From positions 1-44,139 of the forward strand of contig SBBG01000068.1 of NCBI GenBank assembly GCA_005240065.1: a DNA stretch of 44,139 bases. Direction: 5' to 3'. Of the stretch, positions 14,323-17,670 are shown one piece after another (position 1 is the first letter of the stretch; every line of letters starts with the position of its first letter). Origin of the DNA: Gammaproteobacteria bacterium (GTDB taxonomy: Bacteria > Pseudomonadota > Gammaproteobacteria > Ga0077554 > Ga007554). The notes beneath the pieces were generated by a model. It was given only the letters and a program-made list of their open reading frames with translations, was not told the origin of the DNA and made no database searches. Both the position numbers and the translations under genes were made by a program.

Positions 14323-16782
<2,460 letters not shown>

Positions 16783-16828
16783 GGAAAAACTATATATTAT
16801 TATTTTTTAAATAAATAATATTAAATCA

Positions 16829-16851
16829 TCGTCTAATGGACGAGGTTTTTT
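16829..16851 (+). terminator. gyrB intrinsic terminator
   Basis: TCGTC-TAATG-GACGA followed by GGTTTTTT, 47 nt after the gyrB stop. Confidence 0.65.
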
Positions 16852-16910
16852 CGCGTCAATTTTTTGAATTTTCCTTGAACTTTTGCAAGAACACCCCATC
16901 TAATTGAAAG

Positions 16911-17038
16911 AGTGCGATCATGTTGCACTTTGTCCGTCCCACCCCCTCCCGGGACGGCAACCCCTGTACCCGGTTTCCCCAAGCCGGGTATTCTTGACCC
17001 CGGTCTCTCTCCCCCCTTTTTGAGACCGGGGTTTTTTT
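16911..17038 (+). ncRNA. Candidate structured small RNA between gyrB and engB
   Basis: Possible promoter TTGAAC(16875)-18 nt-TCTAAT(16899). Hairpins AGTGC/GCACT (16911-16929), CCGTCCC/GGGACGG (16934-16957), TACCCGG/CCGGGTA (16967-16990), then terminator stem CCCCGGTCTC/GAGACCGGGG plus T7. Lies downstream of a separate gyrB terminator. Confidence 0.5.
16998..17038 (+). terminator. Strong intrinsic terminator with C-rich loop
   Basis: CCCCGGTCTC (16998-17007) / GAGACCGGGG (17022-17031) perfect 10-bp stem followed by TTTTTTT on the + strand. Confidence 0.9.
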
Positions 17039-17055
17039 ATCCCAAAAACAGTAAG

Positions 17056-17670
17056 CTATACCAGCCACTCGTCGAGCTTGGCATGGGCCTCTTCGATGCC
17101 CTTTCCTTGCAGCGCTGAAAAGAGTTGCACGGTAGGCGGTACAGCCTGCTGTTCCGTATAGATCTTGTTCAAGGCATGACGGACTTGTTGCAGAGTTGCA
17201 GCAGCGGCGCTCTTGCTCAGTTTATCGGCCTTGGTCAGGAGGAGGTGAGCAGGCAAACCGGCGTTGCGGCACAGTTCCAGCGTTTGCCAGTCGAAATCGG
17301 TGAGAGGATGGCGGATGTCCATCACGATAACTAAGCCTTTCAATGCTTGGCGATGGCGAAGATAGCGTTCCATGACATGCTGCCAATGCTGCCTCATGCT
17401 GTGCGCCACCTTGGCATAGCCATAGCCGGGTAGATCCACCAGGCGGCGCTGTTCATCGAGGGTGAAGAAATTGATTTGCTGGGTGCGGCCTGGAATCTTG
17501 CTGACGCGGGCCAGCGAGGACTGGCCAGTAATCTTGTTGATGGCGCTGGATTTGCCGGCATTGGAGCGGCCAGCAAAGGCGACTTCCTGGCCGGTGTCGG
17601 GGGGGAACTGGGACGGGGCATGCGCGCCCAGGGCGAAAACTGCACGCCGGTAGAGAGGATTTAAAACCAC
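17056..17670 (-). CDS. engB: Ribosome biogenesis GTP-binding protein YihA/YsxC/EngB
   Basis: GQEVAFAGRSNAGKSSAINKIT, GRTQQINFF, RLVDLPGYGYAKV, LLTKADKLS. Confidence 0.95.
   Translation of the reverse strand: MVLNPLYRRAVFALGAHAPSQFPPDTGQEVAFAGRSNAGKSSAINKITGQSSLARVSKIPGRTQQINFFTLDEQRRLVDLPGYGYAKVAHSMRQHWQHVMERYLRHRQALKGLVIVMDIRHPLTDFDWQTLELCRNAGLPAHLLLTKADKLSKSAAAATLQQVRHALNKIYTEQQAVPPTVQLFSALQGKGIEEAHAKLDEWLV

Follow-up and report, generated by a model that had tools for sequence, protein, structure and literature searches.

Does the region between gyrB and engB in the window, the whole 44,139-nucleotide stretch of DNA analysed here, encode an sRNA of its own, and would such an RNA be a relative of ErsA, which P. 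aeruginosa encodes in its polA-engB region (PMC8575079), or only its counterpart by position? A structured sRNA between the two genes had been proposed in a first-pass annotation, and re-reading of the sequence showed its letters and coordinates to be right. Folding of 16852-17055 as RNA led to a minimum free energy of -68.9 kcal/mol compared to -42.9 +/- 3.8 kcal/mol for dinucleotide shuffles (z = -6.8; 0 of 200 shuffles), and the four-hairpin fold, present between gyrB and engB as described, is far beyond chance. The features of the locus are as follows.

14362-16782, + strand: gyrB, neighbour on the upstream side (Pfam gyrase B domains).
16829-16851, + strand: weak terminator-like hairpin and T-run after gyrB (scan, 6 pairs).
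16874-16904, + strand: sigma32-type box, CTTGAA (16874-16879)-N14-CCCCAT (16894-16899) CTAAT (genome-wide patterns).
16877-16903, + strand: sigmaE-type box, GAACTT (16877-16882)-N16-TCTAA (16899-16903), overlapping the sigma32 box (from sequence only).
16910-17038, + strand: predicted sRNA of about 129 nt (fold z, covariation, and a covariance-model match at 16909-17039 that holds by construction, the window copy being included in the model).
16910-16930, + strand: hairpin 1 (fold; compensatory pairs).
16931-16959, + strand: hairpin 2 with loop ACCCCCUCCC at 16941-16950 (fold; CCUCC in the loop of relatives).
16966-16991, + strand: hairpin 3 with CCCC within the loop (fold; CCC in the loop of relatives).
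16996-17038, + strand: hairpin 4 (16996-17033) with C-rich loop UCUCCCCCCUUUUU, then T7 (17032-17038), an intrinsic terminator.
17056-17670, - strand: engB (YihA-type GTPase), convergent neighbour (Pfam MMR_HSR1).

The last hairpin indeed has a perfect stem with a T7 tail, but the stem is slightly longer than the 10 bp first given, with 11 perfect pairs and a closing G-U. Likewise, the two C-rich loops noted before are both there, and hairpin 3 adds a third. A terminator of gyrB's own at 16829-16851 is plausible but weak (6 pairs, 3 of them G-C) and not significant by itself, as the scan found 1 terminator-like site compared to an average of 1.0 in shuffles. The stretch from the gyrB stop codon to this hairpin (16783-16828) is very A+T-rich.

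A DNA search detected the sequence in 7/7 other genomes of the window's bacterial family, mostly in several copies and often as tandem pairs, and a model search of the own genome gave exactly three copies, namely the window and two on contig C205. The latter (G000:C205:128-249 and 873-991; L010, L166) are extra sRNA copies with sigmaE-like promoters and are convergent with a pseudouridine synthase gene, which adjoins this second sRNA locus; in relatives an RlmL-like methyltransferase gene lies on its other side. In a MAFFT alignment of 17 copies the four hairpins are kept, and 18 of 36 pairs changed on both sides, whereas shuffles gave 9.5 and slid controls no more than 9; as this alignment was made without structure, which was imposed only afterwards, it is a fairer covariation test than the class alignment. 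RNAalifold found 12 of 29 pairs compensated. Hairpin 4 is understated in the MAFFT alignment due to partial misalignment of the terminator stem (71% paired). Class-wide, all 36 pairs change on both sides among 73 distinct copies, in an alignment fitted to the model, whose pair counts lean towards structure. Compensatory changes in related copies, named as a check in the first-pass annotation, were thus seen in all four stems.

The promoter had been read as TTGAAC (16875-16880) and TCTAAT (16899-16904) with a spacer of 18. Both elements and the spacing are correct, but the sigma70-type reading was replaced by sigma32/sigmaE, with sigma factor identity read from E. coli-type consensus boxes and the genes sharing them. 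A sigma70 promoter was rejected, as it went unreported by the sigma70 scan and the -10 element CCCCATCTAAT is identical to the -10 before clpB and htpX. The window promoter is a near-perfect sigma32 box (CTTGAA-N14-CCCCATCTAAT), and the strict pattern CTTGAA-N13-15-CCCCAT occurs at 4 sites in the 2.68 Mb genome: one precedes this RNA, and the other three precede genes encoding an HtpX-type protease, ClpB and an RluD-type synthase. The reversed control had 0 sites. The related pattern with one mismatch adds dnaK, grpE, the second sRNA copy and three other sites. Membership in the heat-shock regulon is also suggested for the rluD-type pseudouridine synthase gene (L123; G000:C109) by its sigma32-type box.

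A strict sigmaE-like pattern, TGAACTTT-N13-15-TCTNA, has 2 sites in the genome, before two of the three sRNA copies. Within the window's bacterial family the engB copy is sigma32-like in 8/8 genomes (the upstream copy where there is a tandem pair), and the other copies have a sigmaE-like box in 9/10 cases and a sigma32 fit in 0/10. Only the window copy fits both in this family; its promoter is perhaps used by both sigma32 and sigmaE, of which one may dominate. Of the loci outside the family, 30/44 have a sigmaE-type box in front of the RNA, compared to 0.9% of random stretches, and ErsA also has such a box in its upstream sequence. The two genomes closest by EngB outside the family (G134 and G247; L139, L140) have CTTGAACTTT...GCCGATCTAC promoters, between the sigmaE and sigma32 types.

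How far the RNA extends beyond the family was followed with a covariance model, R1, built from the 17 copies of the window's bacterial family only and holding no position information. R1 matched 111/274 genomes of the class (94/222 genera), three of the 111 being from the window's own family; E-values of these models are rough. The match lies within 1 kb downstream of engB in 61/71 matched genomes with a listed engB position, and 58/63 engB-adjacent matches are convergent with engB. A second-round model, R2, matched 156/274 class genomes and was engB-adjacent in 76/150 genomes with a listed engB. When the engB loci of named genomes were searched, among them Nitrosomonas, Sulfuricella, Methylococcaceae and Hydrogenophilales, 24/24 matches were beside engB; no match was detected in the engB loci L068-L100, which are almost wholly from other phyla. 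The cultivable Nitrosomonas europaea is among the carriers of the family (L032). Weak R2 matches outside the class (G457:C23:22641-22742 and G279:C79:5733-5851; L201, L206) could be convergent sRNAs with C-rich loops or distant relatives.

The end of polA was found 56-509 nt upstream of the RNA in 32/52 related loci (three confirmed by Pfam). In genome G002 a fructosamine kinase gene takes the place of the upstream neighbour, and gyrB does so in the window's genome only. Since the gene upstream is usually polA, in the sister genome G001 as well (Pfam), gyrB in its place is a local rearrangement within the lineage; gyrB had been taken for the neighbour throughout this lineage, which holds for the window but not for the sister genome. 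The window RNA shows the traits by which we propose to recognise a polA-engB family, namely a model match, convergent engB, C-rich loops and a sigmaE/sigma32-type promoter. The proposal that the ErsA/Spot 42 position holds a structured sRNA is borne out by homologues beside engB across the class and by compensatory changes, and the term positional analogue is right as to position, but a homologue is more likely in view of mutual matches with the ErsA model and polA as the usual upstream gene.

A search of the window against Rfam, proposed earlier as a check, gave no family at its gathering score. The sub-threshold matches included several sRNAs with C-rich loops, namely alpha-r14 (38.2 bits), ErsA (31.5), anti-hemB (28.5), CcsR1 (26) and sX13 (23.5), and also Scr3202. 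The window RNA is the sole match of the ErsA model in its own genome at E <= 0.01, and below its cut-off this model, which is independent of R1, has matches next to engB in 13 genomes that do not belong to the window's bacterial family. Conversely, R1 recovers the genuine ErsA locus of G168 with 24.4 bits and, with 32 bits, two genuine sX13 loci, in G171 and G019. One paralogue in the bacterial family of the window is matched by the sX13 model, and an engB-adjacent relative in G162 exceeds the Rfam cut-off for anti-hemB. In G176 (C33:13149-13903; L172) four tandem copies lie between polA and engB, one of which reaches 48.3 bits with the sX13 model and a second one 37.1 bits with the ErsA model.

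ErsA (Pseudomon-1, RF01719) shares polA upstream, C-rich loops and mutual model matches with the window family. Its promoter is of the sigmaE/AlgU type (GAACTT-N16-GTCATA), and the window RNA appears to have a sigma22/sigmaE-type box likewise; of the two genes flanking ErsA, engB is at its place here, and polA is replaced by gyrB but present in G001. Differences are hairpin 2, which ErsA lacks, the score of 31.5 bits compared to a gathering score of 50, and the sigma32 box, gyrB upstream and paralogues of the window RNA. ErsA depends on sigma22 and is a negative regulator of algC and the porin gene oprD (PMC7565897, PMC8575079). A further trait of ErsA is that it regulates mRNAs, oprD and anr among them, in an Hfq-linked manner. 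sX13 (RF02232; 152 nt downstream of polA in L177) also has C-rich apical loops on stable stems, as seen for the three C-rich loops here, but it has three stems in the literature (PMC3771888) compared to four hairpins, and the window RNA scores 23.5 bits with a gathering score of 50. anti-hemB (ncS04, RF02837) is tied to the R1 family by the G162 match; the window RNA itself reaches 28.5 bits, below the cut-off of 49.5. In B. cenocepacia, ncS04/anti-hemB is an expressed transcript of 105 nt (PMC5688073).

Spot 42 (spf) resembles the window family in lying between polA and yihA/engB, convergent with the latter, and the best model match in the E. coli stretch is at spf. With 15.4 bits for R2 and 12.4 for R1, this match is too weak to claim homology. 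Spot 42 is CRP-controlled and is not known to have a sigmaE promoter. alpha-r14 and CcsR1 (RF02344, RF02791), for which the window RNA is well below the cut-offs, share C-rich loops resembling anti-Shine-Dalgarno sequences; both have been described in Alphaproteobacteria, at other loci. Literature look-ups gave no link to this locus for Bordetella CT_532, Burkholderia NcS25 and Alcanivorax sRNAs.

Such matches to alpha-r14, Scr3202 and CcsR1, together with the weak R2 matches outside the class, would fit a lineage-specific sRNA whose resemblance to ErsA and sX13 arose by convergence, with C-rich loops and GC-rich terminators recurring in unrelated sRNAs. We consider this unlikely, because convergence would not yield one common locus, whereas models blind to position land repeatedly beside engB with polA upstream, and a sigmaE-type promoter is common to these loci.

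The loops are complementary to Shine-Dalgarno sequences. Hairpin 2 holds CCUCC in its loop in 60/73 distinct copies, and CCC is found in the loop of hairpin 3 in 57/73 and in that of hairpin 4 in 64/73. As C-rich loops are conserved in three hairpins, the earlier idea of pairing with Shine-Dalgarno sequences is supported. A short RNA with several exposed hairpin loops might also be one that titrates a protein such as CsrA instead of pairing with mRNAs. CsrA sites carry GGA, whereas these loops are C-rich with almost no G, and a CsrA sponge was rejected on this account as very improbable. Moreover, repression by sX13 requires its C-rich loops and G-rich motifs in the targets (PMC3771888). Also very improbable is a mere terminator region with a bidirectional engB terminator, a gyrB readthrough terminator and no independent RNA: hairpin 4 with its T7 lies just downstream of the convergent engB and could stop engB transcripts too, but hairpins 1-3 show conservation through compensatory changes and follow a promoter box, and the element recurs at a second locus that is not beside engB.

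From the fold, the compensatory changes, the class-wide matches beside engB and the promoter, we therefore assign 16910-17038, with a probability of roughly 0.8, to a trans-acting, stress-induced four-hairpin sRNA of a class-wide polA-engB family with ErsA (Pseudomonas), sX13 (Xanthomonas) and anti-hemB (Burkholderia) among its members. Transcription would start near 16908-16912, driven by the heat-shock factor sigma32 and perhaps also by the envelope-stress factor sigmaE, and the C-rich loops of hairpins 2-4 would block translation of target mRNAs by pairing with their G-rich Shine-Dalgarno regions, perhaps with Hfq. Synthesis under heat shock and a translation block are likely for the window RNA, judging from its sequence and its relatives, for which expression or this mode of action is documented (PMC3771888, PMC7565897, PMC5688073). 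sX13 represses mRNAs with G-rich motifs via its C-rich loops and works without Hfq (PMC3771888), and therefore Hfq may not matter for the window RNA; the Hfq gene is present in its genome. The gene is duplicated in this lineage, and its copies appear to be split between heat shock (the engB copy) and envelope stress (the other copies).

ErsA, sX13 and anti-hemB, so far catalogued as separate sRNAs, look like islands of a single family that spans the class and has a sigmaE-type promoter, linked by the family beside engB. No paper naming both ErsA and sX13 was found among open-access PMC papers, and an earlier unification elsewhere is possible. With slightly better than even odds, an sRNA between polA and engB under an envelope-stress sigma factor was ancestral to Gammaproteobacteria and gave rise to ErsA, sX13, anti-hemB, many unannotated relatives and possibly Spot 42; after duplication in the window's lineage, one copy would have come under the heat-shock sigma factor, and RNAs of the same anti-Shine-Dalgarno type would then respond to cytoplasmic stress through one gene and to envelope stress through others. 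Whether sRNAs are encoded at polA in other bacteria too was a question raised by the authors of the sX13 study (PMC3771888), and our matches suggest that they are in about half of the sampled class genomes. If these RNAs form one family, what is learned on targets and stress in Pseudomonas and Xanthomonas would inform many unstudied bacteria, and the sigma32/sigmaE split between paralogues offers a direct test of how a stress sRNA is rewired in its regulation.
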